Shown piece by piece: positions 5,607 through 30,203 of a stretch of 40,428 nucleotides of DNA. The position numbers were made by a program, and so were the translations under genes. Source of the stretch: Fibrobacter sp. (GTDB taxonomy: Bacteria > Fibrobacterota > Chitinivibrionia > Chitinivibrionales > Chitinispirillaceae); the NCBI GenBank assembly GCA_012728995.1, contig JAAYEB010000200.1:1-40428 (forward strand). Reading direction: 5' to 3'. Within the stretch, counting starts at the first letter, position 1. Each line of letters opens with the position of its first letter. The notes below the pieces were generated by a model. The model was given only the letters and a program-made list of their open reading frames with translations, was not told the origin of the DNA and did no database searches.

Positions 5607-6527
5607 ATGAAAATTGCAAAAAAAGTCACAGACCTTGTTGGAAGAACTCCATTATTGGAGTTACAGAAATTATCTGAAAAAACAGGTGCCAAAGTAATTG
5701 CCAAACTTGAATTTTACAATCCTGTGTCGAGTATCAAGGACAGGATTGCAGTTGCCATGATTAATGCAGCAGAAAAAGATGGTCAGTTGAAGCCGGGTGG
5801 TTTAATAATTGAACCTACAAGCGGTAATACAGGTATAGGGTTAGCTTTCGTTGCTGCATCAAGGAATTACCGGTTAATTCTTACCATGCCTGATACGATG
5901 AGCCTCGAAAGACGAAAATTGCTTGGTGTTTTAGGCGCAGAAGTCGTATTAACAGATGGTGCCAAAGGGATGAAAGGTGCAGTTGAGAAAGCTGAGGAGA
6001 TTCACAATAATAATCCTGGCAGCTATATGCCCCAGCAGTTTAGAAATCCTGCCAATCCCGCAATTCACAAATTGACAACTGGACCAGAAATCTGGCAGGA
6101 TACAGATGGTACAATTGATATATTTGTTGCAGGGGTTGGCACGGGTGGAACAATAAGCGGTTGTGGCAGTTATTTAAAAGAACTTAAACCGGATATAAAA
6201 GTGATTGCAGTAGAGCCAAAAGAATCGCCGGTTTTATCCGGTGGGAATCCGGGGCCACATAAGATTCAGGGAATTGGGGCAGGTTTTGTGCCGGATGTTA
6301 TGGATATGGGAATTGTTGATGAGGTTGTTACGGTGAGTTCTGTGCAAGCAGGTGCAATGGCAAAATATTTGGCGAGTACAGAAGGGCTTCTTGCAGGAAT
6401 TTCTTCTGGGGCTGCTGCTGTTGCAGCTCAAAATATAGCCCAAAGAGCTCAAAATTCCGGAAAAACCATAGTTACCATTTTTCCGGATACAGGAGAACGG
6501 TATCTTTCCACATGGATTTTTGATTAA
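5607..6527 (+). CDS. cysK: cysteine synthase A (O-acetylserine sulfhydrylase)
   Basis: This PLP enzyme of 306 residues makes cysteine from O-acetylserine and sulfide. It has the N-terminal [10 protein letters not shown], the PLP lysine K44 in NPVSSIKDR, the substrate loop [11 protein letters not shown] (71-81), the phosphate-binding [10 protein letters not shown] and the C-terminal [10 protein letters not shown]. Length and motifs match CysK rather than cystathionine beta-synthase. The frame extends back to a TTG at 5592, but the ATG at 5607 has GAGGGGA six bases upstream and begins the family's usual N-terminus. It sits between its likely regulator and metY, and cysE further down the operon supplies its substrate. 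A CysK-regulator interaction like that of CymR in Bacillus is possible. Confidence 0.95.
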
Positions 6528-12558: not shown

Positions 12559-13674
12559 ATGGACAGAAAAAAGATAAAGATACTGTCCAGTGATTTAGAC
12601 ACTGATTATGGATGTCATGAATTTTACAAAGAAGAAAAATTCAGGGATTTGCTTACCAAAGAGAGGAAGAGGACAGAACGTACTAATACACCATTTACAC
12701 TTGTCCTTATTAATATAAGTGATCTGGTAAGACAATGGCAGGAACAGAAGAAAAAACATGAAAAGAAGTTACAGAAAATAATACAGGCTACTTGTTCGAT
12801 GATGCGTGAAACAGATATTCGTGGATGGTATAAAGACTTGCGGGTTATAGGTATAATATTCACAGGGAATGATAAAAGAAACGAGATTGCCGTGCAGGAA
12901 AAAGTAAAGAATCAAATCTGGTCTGTAATGAATGGCGCTGTTAATGGGATTGTAGAGATAACTACTATTACATTTCCTGTTGAAAGTAATGGTTCATTGA
13001 GTGAGATAGAGTTGAAATTTTATCCGGAAACCGAAAACAGGAAATGGAAACTGTTTAAGAATTCCGTTAAAAGACTGGTTGATATTGGTGGTAGCTTACT
13101 GGCTCTTCTACTGTTTTCACCTGTTTTTATTGTTGTTCCGGTTTTAATAAGAATGGAATCTGAAGGGCCGGTATTTTACAAACAAAAAAGGGTTGGATAC
13201 AAAGGTAAAGAATTCACGTTGTATAAATTCAGGTCAATGTATAACGGGAGTGATGATGCAATTCATAAGGAATATGTAAGGGCATTGATAAGGGGAAAAA
13301 TTCAGAACAGAAATGGCTTATACAAAATAACTGATGATCCAAGAGTAACATTGATTGGAAAAGTATTAAGAAGAACCAGTCTGGATGAACTGCCTCAATT
13401 AATTAATGTATTAATGGGCAGCATGTCTCTTGTTGGACCACGGCCCGCAATACCTTACGAAACAGATGAGTATCTTCCATGGCATCTCAGGCGTATTATG
13501 GAAAGCAAGCCAGGTATTACCGGAATCTGGCAGGTAAATGGGAGAAGTATGACTACTTTTGATACGATGGTAAGAATGGATCTGAACTATTGCAAAAGAA
13601 GATCGGTATTACTTGATGTCGGATTGTTATTGAAAACACCTCTTGCAATCTTTAAGGCAAAGGGCGCAATGTGA
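12559..13674 (+). CDS. initiating sugar-phosphate transferase with degenerate GGDEF-like N-terminal domain
   Basis: The C-terminal part (about residues 168-371) is a bacterial sugar transferase of the WcaJ/WbaP/PglC type, which moves sugar-1-phosphate from a nucleotide sugar to undecaprenyl phosphate. It has the membrane-dipping helix (about 180-197), GPVFYKQKRVGYKGKEF, LYKFRSM, the RRTSLDELPQ active-site block (271-280), SLVGPRPA and KPGITGIWQVNGR. The N-terminal part (about 25-140) is not the usual transmembrane bundle. Its pattern (PFTLVLINISDL, then IIQATCSMMRETDIRGWYKDLRVIGIIF) follows the GGDEF fold, with YKDLR where GGDEF would stand, so it should lack cyclase activity. It may sense a nucleotide or serve for interactions. 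It is the first gene of the polysaccharide block, with GGGAAAGAGG upstream of the start. Confidence 0.85.
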   Translation: MDRKKIKILSSDLDTDYGCHEFYKEEKFRDLLTKERKRTERTNTPFTLVLINISDLVRQWQEQKKKHEKKLQKIIQATCSMMRETDIRGWYKDLRVIGIIFTGNDKRNEIAVQEKVKNQIWSVMNGAVNGIVEITTITFPVESNGSLSEIELKFYPETENRKWKLFKNSVKRLVDIGGSLLALLLFSPVFIVVPVLIRMESEGPVFYKQKRVGYKGKEFTLYKFRSMYNGSDDAIHKEYVRALIRGKIQNRNGLYKITDDPRVTLIGKVLRRTSLDELPQLINVLMGSMSLVGPRPAIPYETDEYLPWHLRRIMESKPGITGIWQVNGRSMTTFDTMVRMDLNYCKRRSVLLDVGLLLKTPLAIFKAKGAM

Positions 13675-13696: not shown

Positions 13697-14755
13697 ATGA
13701 TTCGTATAGGTGTTATTGGTTTTGGTTACTGGGGACCAAACATTGTCAGAAATTTTAATGCTGTGGATAATGCGGCAGTAGTTGCTATTTGCGACAAAAA
13801 CAAGGAAGTATTGAATAAATTATCAGGAAGTAATCCTGGTGTTACATTAACAACAGATGTAAATGAAATCATAAATTCCGGTTATATCGATCTGGTTGCT
13901 GTGGTAACTCCGGTATCCACACATTATGATATCGCAAAAAAGGTTCTTGAACAGGGTAAAAACGTATTTATCGAGAAACCATTTACAAGCACTTCTACAC
14001 AGGCGGTTGAATTAATAGATCTTGCCGAAACAAAAAAATGCAAAATAATGGTAGATCACACTTTCATATTTACCGGTGCTGTAAGGAAAATTAAACAGCT
14101 TATAAACAGGGGAGATATGGGTAGTGTTTATTATTATGATTCCGTAAGGGTCAATCTCGGGCTGTTTCAGCATGATGTAAATGTTGTGTGGGATCTTGCT
14201 CCGCATGATTTTTCGATAATGTCTTATCTGATTGATGAAGTGCCGGTGGCAGTTTCTGCATGGGGACAGTCGCATGTCAGTTCTCTGGAAGACATTGCAT
14301 ATATCAATGTCCATTTCAACACCAGTACAGTTGCACATTTCAGCGTAAACTGGCTATCTCCAGTCAAAGTAAGAACAACATTGATCGGTGGTGAAAAAAG
14401 AATGCTCGTGTGGAATGACCTCAATGCAGATGAAAAGATAAAAATTTATGACAAGGGTGTTGAGGTTAATGGTAAGCAGGGAATATATGATTTACTTGTC
14501 AGTTACAGATCTGGAGACATGTGGGCTCCAAAGATAGAACAGAATGAAGCCCTGTTTATGGAATGCAATCATTTTATTGATTGTATAAATTACGACAAGC
14601 CTGTTATTAATGATGGAACTAAAGGGCTGGAAGTAGTGAGAATGCTGGAAGCATGCGACAAATCGATGAAAAATGAAGGACGGCCAGTGGAAATTGATTA
14701 TGCCCTTTTTCAGAACAGTAACCTGCTGGATAAAGGAAACACTGACTTGATTTGA
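13697..14755 (+). CDS. Gfo/Idh/MocA-family sugar-nucleotide oxidoreductase
   Basis: This NAD(P)-dependent oxidoreductase of 352 residues has the Rossmann motif GVIGFGYWGPN (5-15), the conserved EKPF (93-96) with the catalytic-site lysine, and DLAPHDF, which matches the substrate-side Asp/His of the family. The relatives that come to mind are WlbA/WbpB-like enzymes, which oxidise C3 of a UDP-sugar so that an aminotransferase can act; a DegT-family gene follows directly. The frame is open back to 13643 inside the previous gene, but the ATG at 13697 has GAAGGGAGAAGGGA just upstream and gives the normal N-terminus. The specific substrate is unknown. Its partner DegT protein lacks the PLP lysine, so the usual 3-keto to 3-amino step may not happen here. 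Confidence 0.85.
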   Translation: MIRIGVIGFGYWGPNIVRNFNAVDNAAVVAICDKNKEVLNKLSGSNPGVTLTTDVNEIINSGYIDLVAVVTPVSTHYDIAKKVLEQGKNVFIEKPFTSTSTQAVELIDLAETKKCKIMVDHTFIFTGAVRKIKQLINRGDMGSVYYYDSVRVNLGLFQHDVNVVWDLAPHDFSIMSYLIDEVPVAVSAWGQSHVSSLEDIAYINVHFNTSTVAHFSVNWLSPVKVRTTLIGGEKRMLVWNDLNADEKIKIYDKGVEVNGKQGIYDLLVSYRSGDMWAPKIEQNEALFMECNHFIDCINYDKPVINDGTKGLEVVRMLEACDKSMKNEGRPVEIDYALFQNSNLLDKGNTDLI

Positions 14756-14811
14756 ATGGTTCATAAGAAACATCTGTCAGATAATGAATCTCCTGTATAA
14801 AAGGAGGACCA

Positions 14812-15993
14812 ATGAATGAAAGAATTCCCTTTTTGAACATAGAATTTCTTCACAAACCATTAGAACAGGAATTTATAAATGCATTCAGGGAAAACCTGTC
14901 AAATCAGGAAATTTCAGACAGTAATGTAGTAAAAGCTTTTGAACAGGAGTTTGCCTGTTTTTGCGGAACAAGATATGCAATAGGTGTTGGAAGCGGTACA
15001 GATGCATTAAGGTTCGCACTTATTGCAGCAGGGGTTAAATATGGAGATATGGTAATTACTGTTCCAAATACCTTTATCGCAACAACTGAAGCTATTTCAC
15101 AGGCAGGGGCAATGCCTGTGTTTATAGATATAGACGAAAAAACATTTACTATGTCACCCGATAAACTTGAGGAATATCTTTACAAAAATTGTTTTGTTGA
15201 TCATATAACAGAGGAAACAATACATACAAAAACAGGGAAACCTGTAAGAGTCATCGTACCGGTACACCTGTACGGCCATATCGCAGATATGGATAAAATC
15301 AAACAGATTGCTGAAAAATACGATCTTACAGTTATTGAAGATGCCTGTCAGGCAAATGGAGCAGTTTTTTATGGAAAAAACAGCATAAAAAAAACTGGCG
15401 CAATTGCAAAGGCTGGTGCATTCAGTTTTTATCCTGCAAACAATCTGGGTGCTATAGGTGAAGCCGGAGCTGTTACCACTGATGATGAACAGATGGCAGA
15501 TAAAATAAAGATGTTAAGGGATCATGGACAGAAAAGAAAATATAATCATGAATTTGAAGGGTACAACGGAAAGCTTGATACAATTCAGGCTTCTATACTG
15601 AAAGTAAAACTGCAATATCTGAACATATGGAACGATGAACGGAGAAAACTGGCGAAAAAATACAAGGAGATGCTCAAAGGAATAAAACAGATTGAAACAC
15701 CATGCGAGAAACCATTTTCAAAATCGGTATACCATTTTTATGTGATAAGATGCAATTACGATAGAGATAAATTAAGAGAACATCTGAAAAGAAAAAAGAT
15801 TGGAACAGGATTGCATTATCCGGTCCCGCTTCACCTTCAAAAGGCTTATCGCTTTTTGGGATACAGGAAAGGCTGTTTCCCTTTTTGTGAAAAAGCATCA
15901 GAAGAAATCCTTTCTCTTCCGATGTATCCTGGATTGAAAGAGGATCAGCAATGGAAAATTACTGAACAGATAAAAAAGTTTTATGATAAATGA
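14812..15993 (+). CDS. DegT/DnrJ/EryC1-family protein with Asn replacing the PLP lysine
   Basis: This 393-residue protein has the full fold-type I architecture of sugar-nucleotide aminotransferases such as QdtB/FdtB. The phosphate-binding GSGTDALRFAL (60-70), TVPNTFIATTEA, the PLP-ring aspartate D177 in VIEDACQANGA and the late HFYVIRC and HYPVPLH are present. The residue that should form the internal aldimine is changed: FSFYPANNLGAIGEAGAV carries N210 (codon AAC at 15439-15441) where family members have FYP.KNLGA. Normal aminotransfer through an internal aldimine is therefore unlikely. The family includes one known non-Lys type, ColD with His, a 3-dehydratase. An altered reaction, a structural role or an inactive partner are all possible. 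A strong AAGGAGGA lies before the ATG. The frame is intact, so this is not simple decay. Confidence 0.88.
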   Translation: MNERIPFLNIEFLHKPLEQEFINAFRENLSNQEISDSNVVKAFEQEFACFCGTRYAIGVGSGTDALRFALIAAGVKYGDMVITVPNTFIATTEAISQAGAMPVFIDIDEKTFTMSPDKLEEYLYKNCFVDHITEETIHTKTGKPVRVIVPVHLYGHIADMDKIKQIAEKYDLTVIEDACQANGAVFYGKNSIKKTGAIAKAGAFSFYPANNLGAIGEAGAVTTDDEQMADKIKMLRDHGQKRKYNHEFEGYNGKLDTIQASILKVKLQYLNIWNDERRKLAKKYKEMLKGIKQIETPCEKPFSKSVYHFYVIRCNYDRDKLREHLKRKKIGTGLHYPVPLHLQKAYRFLGYRKGCFPFCEKASEEILSLPMYPGLKEDQQWKITEQIKKFYDK

Positions 15994-16034
15994 ATGAATA
16001 ATAATCTAAAAAAAATGTGCAAGAGGGAAAATGT

Positions 16035-16967
16035 ATGGTCAAGGCAATTTATTATACAGTAAAGCCCTGTGTACCGCGTGATTTACAACTGTTTATCAGA
16101 AGAAATATCATACAGTACAAAAGGAAAAAGTGTGTAGACATATGGCCAATTGATAAATCTGCGGGGGAAATACCGCTAAACTGGCAGAGTTGGCCGGAAA
16201 AGAAGAGATTTGCGCTTGTATTAACCCACGATGTAGAAAAAGGTGATGGACAGAACAAATGCATAAACCTGTCCAAAATTGAGGAAGATTATGGATTATG
16301 CTCATCATTCAATTTCGTACCGGAAAGATACACTGTTTCTCCTGTGTTAAGATTGTATCTGGAAAACAGGGGTTTCGAAATAGGTGTCCATGATTTAAAC
16401 CATGATGGTAAGCTTTTCAGTTCAAGAAAAATATTCGAATCAAGAATACCTAAAATCAATCATTACCTGAATGAATGGAAAGCAGTGGGTTTCAGGGCCG
16501 GAGCAATGCATCATAACCTGGATTGGATAGGAAAGCTTGATATTGAATATGACTGTTCAACATTTGATACAGATCCGTTTGAACCACAACCCGATGGAGT
16601 GAAAACAATATTTCCGTTCTGGGTTCAGAACAGGAATGGCGGATTCACTGAACTCCCATATACACTACCGCAGGATTTTACGCTGTTTATCCTTATGAAG
16701 ATGAATGGATGTGAAATATGGAAAAAGAAGCTTGACTGGATTGTGGAAAGAGGTGGTATGGCTTTAATAAACACTCATCCTGATTACATGTATTTCAACA
16801 ATAGCGATTATGGAAAAGAAAGATATAGTGCGCAAATCTATCGGGATCTTCTGGAATATGTTGTTGAAAAGTATAATGGTCAATACTGGAATGCTTTACC
16901 AAGAGAATTGGCTTCATTCGTAAAAAGCATAAATTACGAAAATGTCAGTATTCAGAGAATCGATTAA
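16035..16967 (+). CDS. polysaccharide deacetylase-family protein (NodB-like)
   Basis: This protein of about 310 residues has the deacetylase fold motifs. D66 in LVLTHDVEKG replaces the TFDDG start as the first motif. H119 and H123 in GVHDLNHDG are the likely metal ligands. R154 in GFRAGAMHHN and H248 in INTHPDYM form the later motifs. It most resembles the HDVE-type polysaccharide deacetylase-like proteins found in exopolysaccharide clusters. These are thought to remove acetyl groups from amino sugars in the polymer or its lipid-linked precursor. No signal peptide is seen, so it may act in the cytoplasm. A GTG at 16017 keeps the frame, but the ATG at 16035 has GAGGGA six bases upstream. It lies 41 bases after the DegT gene. 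Confidence 0.75.
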   Translation: MVKAIYYTVKPCVPRDLQLFIRRNIIQYKRKKCVDIWPIDKSAGEIPLNWQSWPEKKRFALVLTHDVEKGDGQNKCINLSKIEEDYGLCSSFNFVPERYTVSPVLRLYLENRGFEIGVHDLNHDGKLFSSRKIFESRIPKINHYLNEWKAVGFRAGAMHHNLDWIGKLDIEYDCSTFDTDPFEPQPDGVKTIFPFWVQNRNGGFTELPYTLPQDFTLFILMKMNGCEIWKKKLDWIVERGGMALINTHPDYMYFNNSDYGKERYSAQIYRDLLEYVVEKYNGQYWNALPRELASFVKSINYENVSIQRID

Positions 16968-16982
16968 AAAGGTAGATTGAAA

Positions 16983-18185
16983 ATGAAAGTATGTATGGTG
17001 GCATATACCTTTTATGAAGGTGATAACCGGGTAAGAAGGTATGCAGAAACATTGGTCAAACGGGGTGACTGTGTTGATGCGATTGTATTGCGTCAGGAAA
17101 GAGCAAAGGAATTACAGAATGTTGCTGGAGTTAATGTATATAAAATACAGCATAGAAATATAAATGAACATCTAAAAATAGAGTACCTGTTAAAGTTAAT
17201 GCTGTTTCTGATCAAATCTTTTTATCATATCACCCGCCTTCATCTGAAAAATAGATATGATTTGATCCATGTTCATTCAGTTCCGGATTTCGAGGTGTTT
17301 GCAGCATTGGCTGCAAAACTGACAGGAGCTAAATTAATCCTGGATATACATGACATCGTACCTGAACTCTTTGCCAGCAAGTTTAATGCAAAAAAGGAAT
17401 CATTGTTTTTCAGGATGCTGTTAATTGCAGAGAAACTATCAATTGGATTCTCGGATCATGTAATAGTTGCAAACCATATATGGTATGAAAGACTGATACA
17501 GAGATCTGTAAAAGAAAGAAAATGTACAGTAGTAATGAATTATCCGGATACAGAAATGTTCAGGAGAACAGAAAAAGGAAATAAAAAATCCGAAAATAAA
17601 TTTGTCATGTTATATCCGGGAACACTAAGTATACACCAGGGACTGGAAACTGCCATTAATGCTGTAGAGCTTGTAAAGGATAAAATTCCGGAAATAGAAT
17701 TTCATATTTACGGAAAAGGTACAGATGAAGAATACTTTTGCGATCTGGTTAAAAATAAAGGTCTCGAAAACAGGATTTACTTTAACCCGATCGTTCCAAT
17801 AGAAAAACTTCCGGAAATAATTTGCAGCGCAGATGTGGGAATCGAGCCCAAAAAAAAGCATTCATTTGGTAATGAGGCTTTCAGTACGAAAATACTGGAA
17901 TTTATGGCAATGGGAATACCGGTTATTGCATCGGATACAATGGTGCATAAGCACTATTTCAATGAAAAGATGGTTAAATTTTTTGAATCAGAAAATGCAA
18001 TTGATCTGGCCGAAAAAATCCTGCTGCTGAAAAAAAATGAAAAAATACGGAAAGCACTGATAATTAATTCATTGAATTTCATGGAAAGAAACAACTGGGA
18101 AAAGAAAAAAACAATATATCTGAACCTGGTTGATAGAATCGTAAAAAATCAAAAAAAATATGGCAATGCTTATTATGGAAAATAA
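16983..18185 (+). CDS. family 4 glycosyltransferase
   Basis: This is a GT-B fold enzyme of about 400 residues. The N-terminal half holds EGDNRVRRYAETL and LIHVHSVPDFEVF. The C-terminal half holds the nucleotide-sugar site: MLYPGTLSIHQGLETAI, the region ADVGIEPKKKHSFGNEAFSTKILEFMAMGIPVIAS with the E-x7-E pattern, and a final helix. It is a retaining transferase that would add one sugar to the growing lipid-linked repeat. A TTG at 16977 keeps the frame; the ATG at 16983 is the better start. Its 3' end overlaps the next gene by about 26 bases, so the two are coupled. Donor and acceptor are unknown. Confidence 0.88.
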   Translation: MKVCMVAYTFYEGDNRVRRYAETLVKRGDCVDAIVLRQERAKELQNVAGVNVYKIQHRNINEHLKIEYLLKLMLFLIKSFYHITRLHLKNRYDLIHVHSVPDFEVFAALAAKLTGAKLILDIHDIVPELFASKFNAKKESLFFRMLLIAEKLSIGFSDHVIVANHIWYERLIQRSVKERKCTVVMNYPDTEMFRRTEKGNKKSENKFVMLYPGTLSIHQGLETAINAVELVKDKIPEIEFHIYGKGTDEEYFCDLVKNKGLENRIYFNPIVPIEKLPEIICSADVGIEPKKKHSFGNEAFSTKILEFMAMGIPVIASDTMVHKHYFNEKMVKFFESENAIDLAEKILLLKKNEKIRKALIINSLNFMERNNWEKKKTIYLNLVDRIVKNQKKYGNAYYGK

Positions 18186-19506
18186 AAACCATAAACACAT
18201 TTCAATAGGAATTCTGGTCCCGATAATCTGGATGATGAGAACGGCATCAAGGGGAATATCTTACTGGTTAAGTCCCGAAACAATGGCAAATGCAGAAATT
18301 GATTATTTACAGGGAAGTCCTCTTGACAGAAACTTTCTGATTATTCTGGAAATTCTTGGCCTGGCTGTACTTTTAAGCAGAAATATAAACTGGATAAAGT
18401 TCATCAAACAAAACAGATATCTGATAATTCTGTATGTTTTCATGGGAATAAGCATAATATGGTCCGATTTTCCCGGTGTTTCAATGAAAAGATGGATCAG
18501 AACAGCTGGTGACCTGATAATGGTTACAATACTTATTACAGAAACAGGATATTCATTTGCTATGCAGAAAATATTCAGGACTTGTGCATATTTTCTTGTT
18601 CCTGTTTCAGTTTACCTGATTAAATACAGAAGAGATCTTGGAGTATCTTATGATAATACTGGCGCGTTTGAAATGTGGATTGGGGTTACTACTCATAAAA
18701 ACAGTTTAGGTCAGCTTGCTGCAATAAGTGCAATGTTTTTAACATGGGCTATTTTGACAAAAATATATGGAAAAAGATGGCTTGATATACCTGTTCTGAT
18801 ATCAGCGCTATGGCTTCTCAATGGATCAAGAACCGCAACAAGCAGAACATCTGTTGGAGTATTTGTTTTCGGAATAATTGTTCTGGGAATATTGCTAATT
18901 GTAAAATCAAATTATAAAGTGATCCAAACTGCACTTCTGGTAGTTGCCGCAGGTTATGTTTTGGGAACACTTTTGTCTCAGCATCTGTTTTCAAGTAACT
19001 TTATTCCTTTCCTGGTTGCTTCAACCGGTGGTGATCCTACATTAACCGGGAGAACATTTTTATGGGATGAACTCATGAAAATGGGATCTGATCAATGGAT
19101 GTACGGATCCGGATTTGGTGCATTCTGGATAGGTAATATAAGCAATAACTTGTGGGAAATATTCAGATGGAATCCAGGCCAGGCACATAATGGATACATT
19201 GATGTTTATCTTGAATTGGGAGCTATTGGATTTATCCTTTTTCTGATATTCCTTGTATCTGTCGTCAAAAATATCCTGATAAATATTTCTCATGATTCAG
19301 ATTATGGGCGCCTGAGAATGGTAATGTTTGCAATGATATTGATTTATAATGTTACGGAAAGCAGCTTCCTAAAGCCAACATCATTTCTGTGGTTTGTAAT
19401 GTTAATGATATCTGTAAAAGCTGCAGAGCATTACCCTGGTGAGGAAACAGAAGCCGATAGAAAATTGAATAAAAAGAAAAGAAAAAACTTTGTACAATCG
19501 GTTTGA
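18160..19506 (+). CDS. O-antigen ligase/polymerase (Wzy/WaaL) family membrane protein
   Basis: This 448-residue protein has about ten hydrophobic segments. Near the middle is a small-residue and Arg/Thr/Ser-rich loop (NGSRTATSRTSVGVFVFG). The large periplasmic loop that follows ends in LTGRTFLWDEL, MYGSGFGAFW and PGQAHNGYIDVYLELGAIGF, the signature of the Wzy_C/O-antigen ligase family. It would polymerise repeats or ligate the finished chain in the inner membrane. The start overlaps the upstream GT4 gene. ATGs at 18160, 18166 and 18175 are in frame and no ribosome binding site chooses between them. No Wzx flippase or Wzz/Wza export gene is present in the window, so those parts must lie elsewhere. 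Confidence 0.85.
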   Translation: MAMLIMENKNHKHISIGILVPIIWMMRTASRGISYWLSPETMANAEIDYLQGSPLDRNFLIILEILGLAVLLSRNINWIKFIKQNRYLIILYVFMGISIIWSDFPGVSMKRWIRTAGDLIMVTILITETGYSFAMQKIFRTCAYFLVPVSVYLIKYRRDLGVSYDNTGAFEMWIGVTTHKNSLGQLAAISAMFLTWAILTKIYGKRWLDIPVLISALWLLNGSRTATSRTSVGVFVFGIIVLGILLIVKSNYKVIQTALLVVAAGYVLGTLLSQHLFSSNFIPFLVASTGGDPTLTGRTFLWDELMKMGSDQWMYGSGFGAFWIGNISNNLWEIFRWNPGQAHNGYIDVYLELGAIGFILFLIFLVSVVKNILINISHDSDYGRLRMVMFAMILIYNVTESSFLKPTSFLWFVMLMISVKAAEHYPGEETEADRKLNKKKRKNFVQSV

Positions 19507-19525
19507 ATGAACTTGTAAGAGGGAA

Positions 19526-20413
19526 ATGGTATCAATGAAATATGTTATTATTACTCCTGCAAGGAATGAAGAAGCTTTTATTGAGAATACAATAAAATCA
19601 GTAATTTTACAAACTGTAAAACCTGTAAGATGGATAATTGTAAGTGACGGTTCGACAGATAATACAGATGGAATAGTAAAGAAATATGAAAACAGATATA
19701 AGTGGATTAAATTAATCAGGATGAATGATCATCCGGACAGGCAGTTCGCAGCTAAAGTACATTGTTTCAATGCAGGATATAAAAAGATAAACTGCTTGAA
19801 CTATGATCTCATAGGAAATCTGGATGCAGATGTTACATTTGATTGTCAGTTTTTTGAATACCTTATAAAAAGATTCAAGGAAATACCGGATTTAGGCGTG
19901 GCAGGTACAACATTTCTTGAAAACGGGAAATTGATTTATGACTATAATCATGCAGACTTTAACCATGTTTCCGGTGCATGTCAGATATTCAGAAAAAAAT
20001 GTTTTGAAAATATCGGCGGTTATATACCTATAAAAGGTGGAGGAATCGACTGGGTTGCTGTCACAACTGCGAGAATGAAAGGCTGGAAAACAAAAACATT
20101 TAATGAAAAAAGTTTCATACATCACAGGGTAATGGGCACTGCAAACAGGGGGTTATTGAAAACCCGTTTCCTGTATGGACAAAAAGATTATTATCTTGGT
20201 GGACATCCCCTCTGGGAAATTTTCAGGGGAATGTATCAAATGGCAAAAAAACCTTATGTTCTGGGAGGCTTAAACCTGATTGCCGGATATTTCTATTCAT
20301 CACTTCTTAGAATTGAACGGCCTGTTTCACCTGAATTGATCTGTTTTCACAGAAAAGAGCAGATGCAGCGATTGAGGAAAATAGTACTGGGAAAAATAAT
20401 GTCGCGTGTCTGA
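19526..20413 (+). CDS. family 2 glycosyltransferase
   Basis: This is a GT-A enzyme of 295 residues, or 292 from the ATG at 19535. The nucleotide-binding IVSDGSTDNTDG, the DxD-like NLDADVTFD and the acceptor-side GGGIDWVAVTTARMKGWKT are clear. The C-terminal stretch has no strong membrane helices. It most likely adds a sugar to the lipid-linked repeat built by this block. AGAGGG at 19518-19523 is very close to the first ATG and 11 bases from the second, so the start is uncertain. It follows the Wzy-like gene by 19 bases and is probably in the same transcript. Confidence 0.85.
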   Translation: MVSMKYVIITPARNEEAFIENTIKSVILQTVKPVRWIIVSDGSTDNTDGIVKKYENRYKWIKLIRMNDHPDRQFAAKVHCFNAGYKKINCLNYDLIGNLDADVTFDCQFFEYLIKRFKEIPDLGVAGTTFLENGKLIYDYNHADFNHVSGACQIFRKKCFENIGGYIPIKGGGIDWVAVTTARMKGWKTKTFNEKSFIHHRVMGTANRGLLKTRFLYGQKDYYLGGHPLWEIFRGMYQMAKKPYVLGGLNLIAGYFYSSLLRIERPVSPELICFHRKEQMQRLRKIVLGKIMSRV

Positions 20414-26787: not shown

Positions 26788-27879
26788 TTAATCTGGTTCT
26801 GATTGCAGACTGTTTTTGCAGGAGATAATCATTAAACAAATAACAACAGAACCAATTAATCCTCCCAGGGTGTTCAATATGAGATCCGAGAGCTGGGATG
26901 AACGAAATGGAAGATAAATCTGTAAAAATTCAATTGTAAAACTTATGAATGCGCATATTAATCCCGAAACAACAACACTTTTTACACATGAATTTAATCT
27001 GATAAACAAAAGATAACACAGAAGAGCTCCGAACGGAATAAATCCCAGTATATTGACTAAAACATCAGAAATATAGGAGTGATTGAATCGAAAATCTACC
27101 CATGGAGGAGTAAACGGAGATAAAACAGGCGGTCTGAATATCTGAGGTATTGATAATATCGCTTCACTTGATTTGTCGAACGATACTGTAAATGTTTTAC
27201 CGGTTTTGGCATCCGATAAAGAATTGTCTGTTTTATATGAAGATTGATACTGGTAATGGGTTGTAATATCATTTTGTGAGAGAAAACGGTCGTAAAATGT
27301 TATTTCATATATCTGGCCATTCCATGAACCGGTACCATCCGGGGAATTACCTAAAATAATACCCTGAGCTTCTGAAAGATCGTTTATTACAACCGGTTTA
27401 TTCCATCTGTGTACAATTTTATCATTTTTAAACAGAATAGTTTCATTTTTGGAACAGCAGAGTGTAAGCATTACCGGTTCTTCTGATTTAAATGCATCTT
27501 TGTAACCGAAATTGCCTTTATAACCGGTTTTGATATCATTAAATCGAAATAGTACGCCGGATTTCCACTGGCCGATTGTAAAAAAATCTGAATTGTTATT
27601 GTATATGGAAAAAATGTGGGGAACATTTCTGGTTGCATGGGAAAAAGTTTTCAGCCTTATTTGAACGGTAAAGGGTTTATTTAAAATCTGCACAAGTTTT
27701 TCGGGTATTGGGGAAATTAATGCAAACGATGGTTTTTTGAAGCTGATTAGCTGTTTGCTGGTGTCGATACAAGCCAGATTTTTTTCCATGAAATTAAACG
27801 GAAAAAGTCCGACGAACAATATGGCTAAGATCATCAACAGAAACACTGGGTACAAAAGTTCAGAAAAAAATTTTCTCAT
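26788..27879 (-). CDS. VanZ-family membrane protein with LamG-like domain
   Basis: On the minus strand, about 363 residues. The first hydrophobic helix is at about 8-28. A beta-rich region (about 45-215) then looks like a laminin-G/concanavalin-type domain: FTVQIRLKTFS, QIYEITFYDRFLSQNDI and LGNSPDGTGSWNG are typical of LamG-fold lectin-like modules. The C-terminal part (about 262-352) holds three to four helices with the VanZ pattern NILGFIPFGALL and FTIEFLQIYLPFRSSQLSDLILNTLGG. The ectodomain would sit in the periplasm and could bind polysaccharide. The start at 27879 has CGGGAG seven bases upstream; the frame extends to 27936 without such a site. The neighbouring polysaccharide genes suggest a link to glycan handling, which is inference. 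Confidence 0.75.
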   Translation of the reverse strand: MRKFFSELLYPVFLLMILAILFVGLFPFNFMEKNLACIDTSKQLISFKKPSFALISPIPEKLVQILNKPFTVQIRLKTFSHATRNVPHIFSIYNNNSDFFTIGQWKSGVLFRFNDIKTGYKGNFGYKDAFKSEEPVMLTLCCSKNETILFKNDKIVHRWNKPVVINDLSEAQGIILGNSPDGTGSWNGQIYEITFYDRFLSQNDITTHYQYQSSYKTDNSLSDAKTGKTFTVSFDKSSEAILSIPQIFRPPVLSPFTPPWVDFRFNHSYISDVLVNILGFIPFGALLCYLLFIRLNSCVKSVVVSGLICAFISFTIEFLQIYLPFRSSQLSDLILNTLGGLIGSVVICLMIISCKNSLQSEPD

Positions 27880-27906
27880 AATAACTCCCGGGTGTTTTAA
27901 ATTACC

Positions 27907-27936
27907 ATAATACTTTATCTTATTGTATTTTTCCAA
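27907..27936 (-). promoter_or_regulatory. promoter of the VanZ gene
   Basis: Read on the minus strand, TTGGAA (27936-27931) and TATTAT (27912-27907) are 18 bases apart. This places the transcription start about 20 bases before the VanZ start codon. The site lies in the 62-base divergent gap with the RarA gene. Confidence 0.45.
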
Positions 27937-27941
27937 AATAT

Positions 27942-30203
27942 ATGCCAGATTCTAATGATTTAAGTAAAACCGATCTTTTTGAAAGCAATCGTGAAGAGCT
28001 TTTACGTAAGACCGCACCTCTTGCTGATCGTATGCGCCCCAGGACACTTGATGAGTATATTGGGCAGGAACATATAATTGGAGCAGGGCGTCTTTTAAGA
28101 AGGGCTATTCAGATTGACCAGCTATCAAGTCTGATTTTTTATGGACCTCCCGGAACCGGCAAAACTACACTTGCCAGGATTATTGCAAATACGACCAAAG
28201 CACAGTTTCTCTCCATTAATGCAGTTTTAAGTGGTGTCAAGGATATCCGTGAATCTATTGATACTGCCAGGAAAACTTTATCTCTTTATGGGAGAAGGAC
28301 AATACTGTTTATTGATGAAGTGCACAGATTTAACAAATCTCAACAGGATGCACTCTTACCGCATGTAGAAAACGGAACAATAATTCTGATTGGGGCTACA
28401 ACCGAGAATCCTTACTTTGAAGTTAACAAGGCTCTTGTGTCCAGGTCGCGGATCTTTCAGTTAATACAGCTTACAGAAAAGGACCTCAAGGCAGTTGCTG
28501 TTCAGGCTGTTAATGATAAAGAAAGAGGTTACGGAAAGAAGAAGATAATCATAGAGGATGATGCACTTGATCATCTTGTAAAAGTAGCCAATGGAGATGC
28601 AAGAAGTGTTCTCAACGGACTCGAACTCGCTGTTGAAACAACAAAACCGGATAGTTCGGGGGTCATTCGCATATGCAGGGATATTGCTGAAGAATCGATT
28701 CAAAAACGGGCTGTTTTATATGATAAAGATGGTGATGTTCATTATGACACAATTTCTGCATTTATTAAATCCATACGCGGCTCAGATCCTGATGCAGCCC
28801 TTTATTGGATGTCGAAAATGATTTATGCAGGTGAGGACCCAAGGTTCATTTTTCGGCGCATGATGATCCTTGCCTGTGAAGACGTAGGGATGGCTGATCC
28901 AAAAGCGCTTGGGGTTGTAGTTGACTCCGCAAGAGCATTTGATTATGTCGGTTTGCCTGAAGGAAGATATCATCTCGCACATGCATGCCTTTATCTGGCA
29001 ACTGCCCCGAAAAGTAATTCAAGCATGGCTTTCTTTGATGCTCTTGATGCAGTATCGAATGAGAACAAGGATGATATACCGGATCATTTACGGGATGCAA
29101 ACAGGGACAAAAATGGATTGGGACATGGTGCCGGGTATCTCTATCCGCATGCCTATCGGGATCATTGGGTTGCACAGCAATATCTGCCATCTTCTTTACA
29201 AGGAAAAGTATTCTATCTGCCTTCCGATCAGGGATGCGAAAAGGAGACCGGACAGAGAGTAGCCAGATTTCGTGAAGCTCAACTGGAAGCGATGGTTGAA
29301 GACGATGATTCATCACCTTTGACATACGATGAGAAGACCGGAAAAAAGGAAAACCGGAGCAAAGAGTGGATAGACCGGTCTCTTGGAAACAGGGGCGTTC
29401 AGCTAGGTAAAATCAGAAAACAGGTCCTTTCCAGGGCTATGTTGAATAAGGACAGTCTTGTGCTTGATCTGAATGCTCGTACTGGAATGCTGACTTTTGA
29501 AGCTGCAAGGATTGCTGCTAATGGAGCTGTATGGGCTTTGGCACACGATAATAAATCATTTAAAACAGTAAAGGCTATTGCGGAACGGTTCGATTTGTTG
29601 TCCCGGCCACAGATCGTGTTATCATCAATGGATTCATTCGAAAAAGATTTAAAAACAGTTGCAGGAGAGAATGTCAGATTTGATGCAATTATTGGGCGAA
29701 ATATCATTTCCAGATGTTCAGAAAAAAAGGAACTGTTTCTCCGGATTACAAAAATACTCAATAAAGGTGGTCGAATTGTTCTGGCAGAACCGGTTTCTTC
29801 AGAAGGTCAGAGATTATCAGATCTGATTGATCAGTCAAAAATTGATGCTGACCTGTTTAAGTATCTTACAGAAGCGCAGACAGAGCTTTTCTCTGATTGT
29901 TCCGATTCCATGGTAAACTGGAATTCTGATTCTCTTAAAAGTGAGTTTAACAATATTGATAAGATAGAGGTGTCTTATCACAGGCAGATTGAAAATATAC
30001 AAAAAAGAATATCTGAAGCAGATATTGATTTCTGGTTCAGGACAACCGACATCTCAAAAAGGAGATCTTTGGGCAGTAGAATCGCTCAATATTGCAGTGA
30101 AAAGCAGTTTCAGAAACTTAAAGATGAAATTATCCTTCAGTTAAGCAATAAAATTGTCAATTGGAAAACTGTTTATTTGTATATTACTGCAGTCAAAAAA
30201 TAG
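27942..30203 (+). CDS. rarA: RarA/MgsA AAA+ ATPase fused to a methyltransferase-like domain
   Basis: This is a 753-residue fusion. Residues about 20-450 are the replication-associated recombination protein RarA (MgsA, WRNIP1 relative). Seen are the Walker A GPPGTGKT (68-75), Walker B FIDEVHR (124-129), sensor-like GATTENP, the RALVSRSRIF-like arginine region (163-172) and the C-terminal tetramerisation part (FIKSIRGSDPDAALYW, RRMMILACEDVGMADP). Residues about 484-640 resemble a class I SAM-dependent methyltransferase: LVLDLNARTGMLTFEAAR for motif I, then FDAIIGRNII and the LNKGGRIVLAEP strand, though motif I is not canonical. A last region (640-753) is unassigned. RarA fused to an additional domain is known in cyanobacteria. 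RarA alone is about 440 residues. No clear ribosome binding site precedes the ATG. Confidence 0.88.
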   Translation: MPDSNDLSKTDLFESNREELLRKTAPLADRMRPRTLDEYIGQEHIIGAGRLLRRAIQIDQLSSLIFYGPPGTGKTTLARIIANTTKAQFLSINAVLSGVKDIRESIDTARKTLSLYGRRTILFIDEVHRFNKSQQDALLPHVENGTIILIGATTENPYFEVNKALVSRSRIFQLIQLTEKDLKAVAVQAVNDKERGYGKKKIIIEDDALDHLVKVANGDARSVLNGLELAVETTKPDSSGVIRICRDIAEESIQKRAVLYDKDGDVHYDTISAFIKSIRGSDPDAALYWMSKMIYAGEDPRFIFRRMMILACEDVGMADPKALGVVVDSARAFDYVGLPEGRYHLAHACLYLATAPKSNSSMAFFDALDAVSNENKDDIPDHLRDANRDKNGLGHGAGYLYPHAYRDHWVAQQYLPSSLQGKVFYLPSDQGCEKETGQRVARFREAQLEAMVEDDDSSPLTYDEKTGKKENRSKEWIDRSLGNRGVQLGKIRKQVLSRAMLNKDSLVLDLNARTGMLTFEAARIAANGAVWALAHDNKSFKTVKAIAERFDLLSRPQIVLSSMDSFEKDLKTVAGENVRFDAIIGRNIISRCSEKKELFLRITKILNKGGRIVLAEPVSSEGQRLSDLIDQSKIDADLFKYLTEAQTELFSDCSDSMVNWNSDSLKSEFNNIDKIEVSYHRQIENIQKRISEADIDFWFRTTDISKRRSLGSRIAQYCSEKQFQKLKDEIILQLSNKIVNWKTVYLYITAVKK

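Follow-up and report, generated by a model that had tools for sequence, protein, structure and literature searches.

A DegT-family protein with asparagine in place of the Schiff-base lysine, possibly a non-catalytic relic, in a conserved exopolysaccharide cluster

The window, by which we mean the whole stretch of 40,428 nucleotides analysed here, contains the following genes and features:

12559..13674, + strand, polyprenyl glycosylphosphotransferase (PF02397, conserved synteny)
13697..14755, + strand, Gfo/Idh/MocA oxidoreductase, UDP-GlcNAc 3-dehydrogenase-like (NF040723, PF01408, alignment)
14756..14811, + strand, 56-bp gap at the place of a hexapeptide N-acetyltransferase gene (synteny with relatives)
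14812..15993, + strand, DegT/DnrJ/EryC1/StrS-family protein, Schiff-base Lys replaced by Asn210 (393-aa open reading frame, PF01041, AF2 model)
16017..16967, + strand, putative polysaccharide-deacetylase-like protein (synteny; no Pfam or NCBIfam match, name provisional)
16977..20413, + strand, GT4 glycosyltransferase, Wzy-like (Wzy_C) protein and GT2 glycosyltransferase (Pfam, synteny)

In relatives, the corresponding order is glycosylphosphotransferase, Gfo/Idh, hexapeptide N-acetyltransferase, DegT, deacetylase-like protein, GT4, Wzy, GT2 and GH88-like protein, with variations, and in most clusters the deacetylase-like gene comes directly after degT. The degT gene of the window is part of this conserved exopolysaccharide cluster. 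It adjoins the Gfo/Idh gene (PF01408), the neighbour named in an earlier note made from the letters alone. For that oxidoreductase, NF040723 (UDP-GlcNAc 3-dehydrogenase) is the best model, at 170 bits and below the equivalog cutoff of 450; the alignment shows both its EKP and its DLAPHD motif undamaged, and it is 58-71% identical to its orthologs in most clusters and 44% identical to that of G006. In the glycosylphosphotransferase, the approximately 160 residues ahead of the PF02397 domain (12559-13050) resemble a degenerate GGDEF-like domain, an impression that comes with no Pfam match and concerns a region also present in relatives.

In 14 of the 20 relative loci, degT is preceded by a hexapeptide N-acetyltransferase gene, which is absent at the window locus. 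It is also absent at the G007 locus, and only a deletion remnant of it is present in G016. The latter sits between the Gfo/Idh and DegT genes (L037, G016:C69, about 6090-6312) and is an internally deleted acetyltransferase in one short open frame, residues from about 1-45 being joined to about 128-159; G016 also has a full copy, on C380. Solved relatives of the acetyltransferase include the WxcM-like 4mzu, the lipopolysaccharide acetyltransferase 3mqg and QdtC, a likeness that fits an enzyme acetylating the 3-amino group of a nucleotide sugar; no QdtA/FdtA-like isomerase was seen in the annotated cluster. The window genome is 97.65% complete; no further DegT of the window clade was found there, its DegT paralogs are only distant (45% identity or less) and a second Gfo/Idh gene lies on C105. 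At the start of contig C426 of this same genome (G000, L069), the contig edge cuts into a related acetyltransferase gene; a deacetylase-like paralog lies 533 bp further on, with no DegT between them (1-1846), so that part of the cluster is present a second time in rearranged form. No credible blastx match to an aminotransferase remnant was obtained in the 533-bp gap. Further along the same contig (5045-7817) there is a complete Gfo/Idh - hexapeptide acetyltransferase - DegT cassette, the DegT of which has Lys.

The degT frame is open from the ATG at 14812 to the stop at 15993, and a strong ribosome-binding site (AAAGGAGGACCAATG) with an intact Shine-Dalgarno precedes it, AAAGGAGG standing immediately 5' of the ATG. 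The 393-residue product matches PF01041 at 350.6 bits (cutoff 19.8) over residues 18-387, i.e. the whole protein. An AF2 model (pLDDT 80.9, pTM 0.84, with low confidence in loops 129-135, 209-216 and 240-251) has the fold type I aminotransferase fold, and its top Foldseek matches are DegT sugar aminotransferases with TM of about 0.83-0.86. The nearest PDB matches are 7b0d (an Archaeoglobus veneficus sugar transaminase), QdtB 3frk and DesV 2oga, with phmmer E-values of 7.6e-99 for 7b0d and 8.4e-92 for 3frk; these proteins and WlaRG 5u1z, which are the nearest in sequence as well as in structure, share the DegT fold with the window protein. Both the assignment to the DegT family and the clean frame, as described in the earlier note, are borne out by the PF01041 score, the DegT-fold model and the 393 codons without a stop. 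The active-site features of the protein are as follows:

14902..14925, + strand, degenerate loop, residues 31-38, NQEISDSN (ortholog alignment)
14989..15009, + strand, PLP-phosphate motif GSGTDAL, residues 60-66, retained (alignment)
15340..15342, + strand, Asp177, the pyridine-N aspartate, retained (alignment)
15355..15357, + strand, Asn182, His in 20/20 orthologs (EDACQAHGA; ortholog alignment)
15436..15438, + strand, Ala209, Gly in 20/20 orthologs (ortholog alignment)
15439..15441, + strand, AAC codon of Asn210, at the aldimine-Lys position (codon read and alignments)
15571..15573, + strand, Lys254, Arg in 20/20 orthologs (NGRLD) and at least 90% Arg in 40 wider relatives

Residues 204 to 213 of the window protein are F204, S205, F206, Y207, P208, A209, N210, N211, L212 and G213, with GCA, AAC and AAT as codons 209-211. 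In the phmmer alignments, N210 falls on the aldimine lysine of 7b0d (FSFYPTKNLGA) and of QdtB 3frk (FSFYPAKNLGS), so that the asparagine which the earlier note had placed at the Schiff-base position is indeed there. Relatives were collected by a search of 151 genomes of the phylum, which returned 20 close ones (49-61% identity, about 390 residues) and many more distant DegT proteins. All 20 close relatives read FSFYPGKNLGA and have kept the lysine. When the pattern F-[Y/S]-P-x-N-N-L-G was searched in 168 genomes of the phylum, the window gave the only match in coding sequence, a second match (G002:C182) lying inside no open reading frame; the viral contigs gave zero matches. A scan of genome contigs with the window protein recovered three distant relatives only, two of them Lys-bearing and one E1-like with His. 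Asn210 is private to the window genome, the sole genome of its genus among those compared. A conserved Asn-type subfamily was therefore rejected, with 0/20 orthologs carrying Asn and the pattern search returning the window and one match outside any frame. The possibility raised in the earlier note that other genomes have Asn beside the same oxidoreductase did not hold either, as all orthologs adjoining that oxidoreductase carry Lys. A literature search, in itself weak evidence, found no natural Lys-less DegT proteins other than those of the His type.

We asked whether another lysine could take over, in which case the protein would still be an aminotransferase of some kind, a different lysine or an external amino acid acting in a slow reaction or on a different substrate. 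The cofactor cup is intact, and candidate lysines are present: K200 (in GAIAKAGAFSF), the one nearest to N210 and ten residues ahead of the aldimine position, and the private new lysines K285, K292, K300, K304 and K329. However, K200 also occurs in the orthologs of G016, G010, G007, G024 and G031, all of which bear the Schiff-base lysine; it was therefore rejected as a relocated or replacement lysine, and in the AF2 model it is located just ahead of strand 201-206. The five private lysines are scattered over other segments. We consider continued transamination very unlikely, and the absence of another lysine at the aldimine position, on which the earlier note had made its reading depend, is upheld.

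Asn210 is accompanied by further changes. We counted as invariant those columns that are unchanged in all other sequences (19 others compared). The window DegT breaks 8 of 94 such columns (G37S, H182N, S188G, G209A, K210N, R254K, L309F and V383I), the highest number among 20 DegT sequences, the others breaking 0-5 and mostly 0-2. The same count for other genes of the window gives 1 each for the glycosylphosphotransferase, deacetylase-like and GT4 genes, 2 for the GH88-like gene, 5 each for gfo and Wzy, and 7 for GT2. Over 40 wider relatives, 22 columns of the DegT alignment are conserved at 95% or more, of which G37 and K210 are the only two that the window breaks; when the level is set at 90%, R254K joins them. 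Seen against the 3-aminotransferases of GnnB/WbpE/QdtB type, the Schiff-base lysine is missing and the clade-invariant residues G37, H182, G209 and R254 are all four replaced. Three residues present in 7b0d and QdtB, namely the Schiff-base Lys, the His in QAHG and the Arg in N-x-R-x-D, correspond to Asn, Asn and Lys in the window protein. In loop 31-38, orthologs mostly read S-G/A-K/R/Q-F/Y-I/V-S/G-G-P, and Ser37 of the window replaces a Gly conserved in 40/40 relatives. The partner subunit of Spr1654 contributes residues 28 and 30 to uracil binding (PMC5936713), and if matched to that structure the window loop is possibly the partner-subunit uracil loop.

The cofactor side of the active site presents a different picture. 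T63, D177, Q180 and S205 are all kept, which preserves the aspartate to the pyridine nitrogen, the glutamine to O3' and the serine/threonine contacts to the phosphate; the counterparts of these four residues contact PLP in solved relatives (PMC8040287, PMC5936713), and the phosphate motif, Asp, Gln and Ser are common to the window protein and the QdtB/DesV/WlaRG/7b0d group. The earlier note was correct in calling D177 and the GSGTDAL phosphate site intact, and Q180 and S205 can be added to these. Residues 61-90, which include most of the phosphate motif, have private changes in 0/23 columns; residues 181-210 have them in 7/17 columns, versus 25/180 elsewhere (Fisher p = 0.009, for a block that was chosen after the counts were seen).

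These substitutions bear on whether the true gene might carry Lys, the asparagine being an error of sequencing or assembly in a metagenome-assembled genome. The window is one contig of a 486-contig assembly, and the genomes compared include no second one of the genus. But five substitutions, G209A, K210N, H182N, G37S and R254K, all private and independent of one another, fall in conserved active-site columns of a clean frame with no premature stop, which argues against a sequencing error; no single-base error can account for the window DegT, and we regard this explanation as hardly credible.

By the established chemistry of the DegT family (compare PMC8987622), a protein without the Schiff-base lysine can form no internal aldimine and is deprived of the base needed for the 1,3-proton shift. 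Catalytic transamination should therefore be lost in the window protein, and we infer this loss from the sequence with high confidence. What would be left is suggested by structures of DegT enzymes in which the lysine was changed to alanine by engineering, namely 5u21 (a Campylobacter aminotransferase, K184A), WbpE 3nys (K185A), perosamine synthase 3dr4 (K186A) and ArnB 4oca (K188A), all crystallised with cofactor and/or amino sugar. An engineered ColD with Asn at the very same place (3b8x) trapped PLP-bound GDP-perosamine as an aldimine. Taken together, these structures point to binding without turnover, and by analogy the window protein is likely to be at most a binder. All five are laboratory-made, whereas the window protein is a natural Lys-less variant with further active-site changes.

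Lys-less members of the fold that do react are known, which is the basis for supposing a new chemistry in the window protein, i.e. a PMP-using enzyme in the manner of ColD, E1 or SpnQ that would carry out, for example, dehydration or deoxygenation of a 3-keto sugar with Asn in the place of His. In the DegT-fold 3-dehydratases ColD, E1 (RfbH) and SpnQ, the Schiff-base Lys is lost and a His is functional instead, a precedent within the superfamily (PMC8987622). L036, which is E1-like, has His at the N210 column, and a lysine at the position of Lys254 is also found in E1 (NLK). The His of ColD/E1/SpnQ acts as acid/base on 4-keto-6-deoxy sugars; the window protein lacks it, has an Asn that cannot act in that way, and sits inside an aminotransferase clade next to an enzyme expected to yield a 3-keto sugar. 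Since an Asn could not serve as catalytic base, a dehydration of the ColD type is unlikely, and the Asn form of ColD is the engineered variant with its trapped aldimine. Moreover, the ancestral H182 and R254 are lost, and the window protein has a gap in place of the [2Fe-2S] cysteine insertion, which L036 carries and which is seen in E1 and SpnQ only. The "different sugar chemistry" put forward in the earlier note was thus not borne out: H182N, R254K, G37S, the scrambled N-terminal loop and the missing acetyltransferase point instead to a protein that has neither its original substrate nor its original reaction any longer. We judge a new PLP/PMP chemistry to be very unlikely, as we do a persisting aminotransferase.

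As for the original reaction, the nearest pathway is of the UDP-GlcNAc 3-dehydrogenase / 3-aminotransferase / N-acetyltransferase kind, leading to a UDP-3-amino sugar. GnnA/GnnB represent such a gene set without the acetyltransferase. WbpB/WbpE/WbpD (PMC10622841), which like GnnA/GnnB lead to UDP-2,3-diamino sugars, are matched in the window's relatives by the 3-dehydrogenase-like Gfo/Idh, DegT and the hexapeptide acetyltransferase; by comparison, the window locus is without the acetyltransferase and its aminotransferase without the lysine. The ancestor of the window protein would have been a PLP-dependent UDP-sugar 3-aminotransferase of GnnB/WbpE/QdtB type, aminating the 3-keto sugar that the Gfo/Idh dehydrogenase next to it supplied, with the neighbouring hexapeptide N-acetyltransferase then acetylating the amine. 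In the window lineage, the acetyltransferase is no longer at the locus, and the aminotransferase is now without the Schiff-base Lys and several conserved active-site residues. The present protein is probably still of dimer fold and may hold PLP or PMP non-covalently via GSGTDAL, Asp177, Gln180 and Ser205.

To see how long the gene has been under constraint, a codon model was fitted to five species. It gave an omega of 0.065 on the window degT branch versus 0.058 for the background; a test against omega = 1 rejected that value (2dlnL about 20), the model tolerating an omega as high as about 0.16. All this is a rough bound, given saturation at synonymous sites and a base composition that varies among the species. 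The low omega indicates purifying selection for most of the history of degT on this branch, of which roughly a tenth could be neutral under the model, its power for a late neutral phase being small. A long neutral decay is, with the same caveat on saturation, unsupported. In protein trees, the window DegT tip is 0.60 versus 0.27 for G007, a ratio of 2.2 that indicates moderate acceleration; the same ratio in seven other cluster genes is about 0.7-1.7.

We favour the reading, and give it an even chance, that the protein is a relic without catalytic activity, left from a 3-amino-sugar branch which this organism's exopolysaccharide no longer has, and that it was inactivated recently relative to the divergence from its relatives. 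Inactivity was one of the options listed in the earlier note. Against a relic stand the intact frame and ribosome-binding site and the omega of 0.065, with no sign of prolonged neutral decay. G016 and G007 are also without a working acetyltransferase at the locus yet keep Lys, which means that loss of the acetyltransferase alone does not imply loss of the aminotransferase.

The same observations (intact frame and Shine-Dalgarno, low omega on the branch) are what a maintained pseudoenzyme would show, in which catalysis was lost and selection acts on some non-catalytic function; it might, for instance, scaffold the Gfo/Idh enzyme or be its allosteric partner, regulate the cluster by binding PLP or a UDP-sugar, or form the inactive half of a heterodimer. 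The absence of private changes at residues 61-90 while the active-site loops changed, and five or more co-occurring active-site changes without a stop or frameshift, are likewise in its favour. However, the Asn form occurs in one genome only and hence gives no direct sign that a Lys-less state has been conserved, the distance of the DegT paralogs in this genome leaves no obvious heterodimer partner, and a role as UDP-sugar sensor sits poorly with the degenerate state of the possible uracil-binding loop. We therefore hold a maintained pseudoenzyme to be a tentative alternative. The more specific proposal, that of a selected cofactor- or ligand-binding pseudoenzyme which controls or scaffolds the 3-dehydrogenase, or else of an Asn-type PMP reaction on the 3-keto sugar, we find doubtful. 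Relic and maintained pseudoenzyme are poorly separated because one genome only bears on them.

The Lys-less DegT members known are His-type dehydratases or laboratory mutants, and the window protein is a natural Asn variant in an otherwise strictly Lys-bearing clade. It illustrates how a sugar-tailoring enzyme can be stripped of its catalytic residue and yet retain its fold and cofactor site, here together with the disappearance of a partner enzyme. Should selection be maintaining the protein, it would count as a DegT pseudoenzyme; otherwise, it exemplifies the abandonment of a cell-surface sugar branch. Either way, it is a warning against annotating such genes as aminotransferases by family membership alone.

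Two further genes of the window can be mentioned. On the - strand, 26788-27936 encodes one protein with a laminin-G-like region (a weak match) followed by a VanZ-like domain. At 27942-30203, a MgsA/RarA-type AAA+ ATPase seems to carry a fused methyltransferase-like domain (residues 503-636, also weak).
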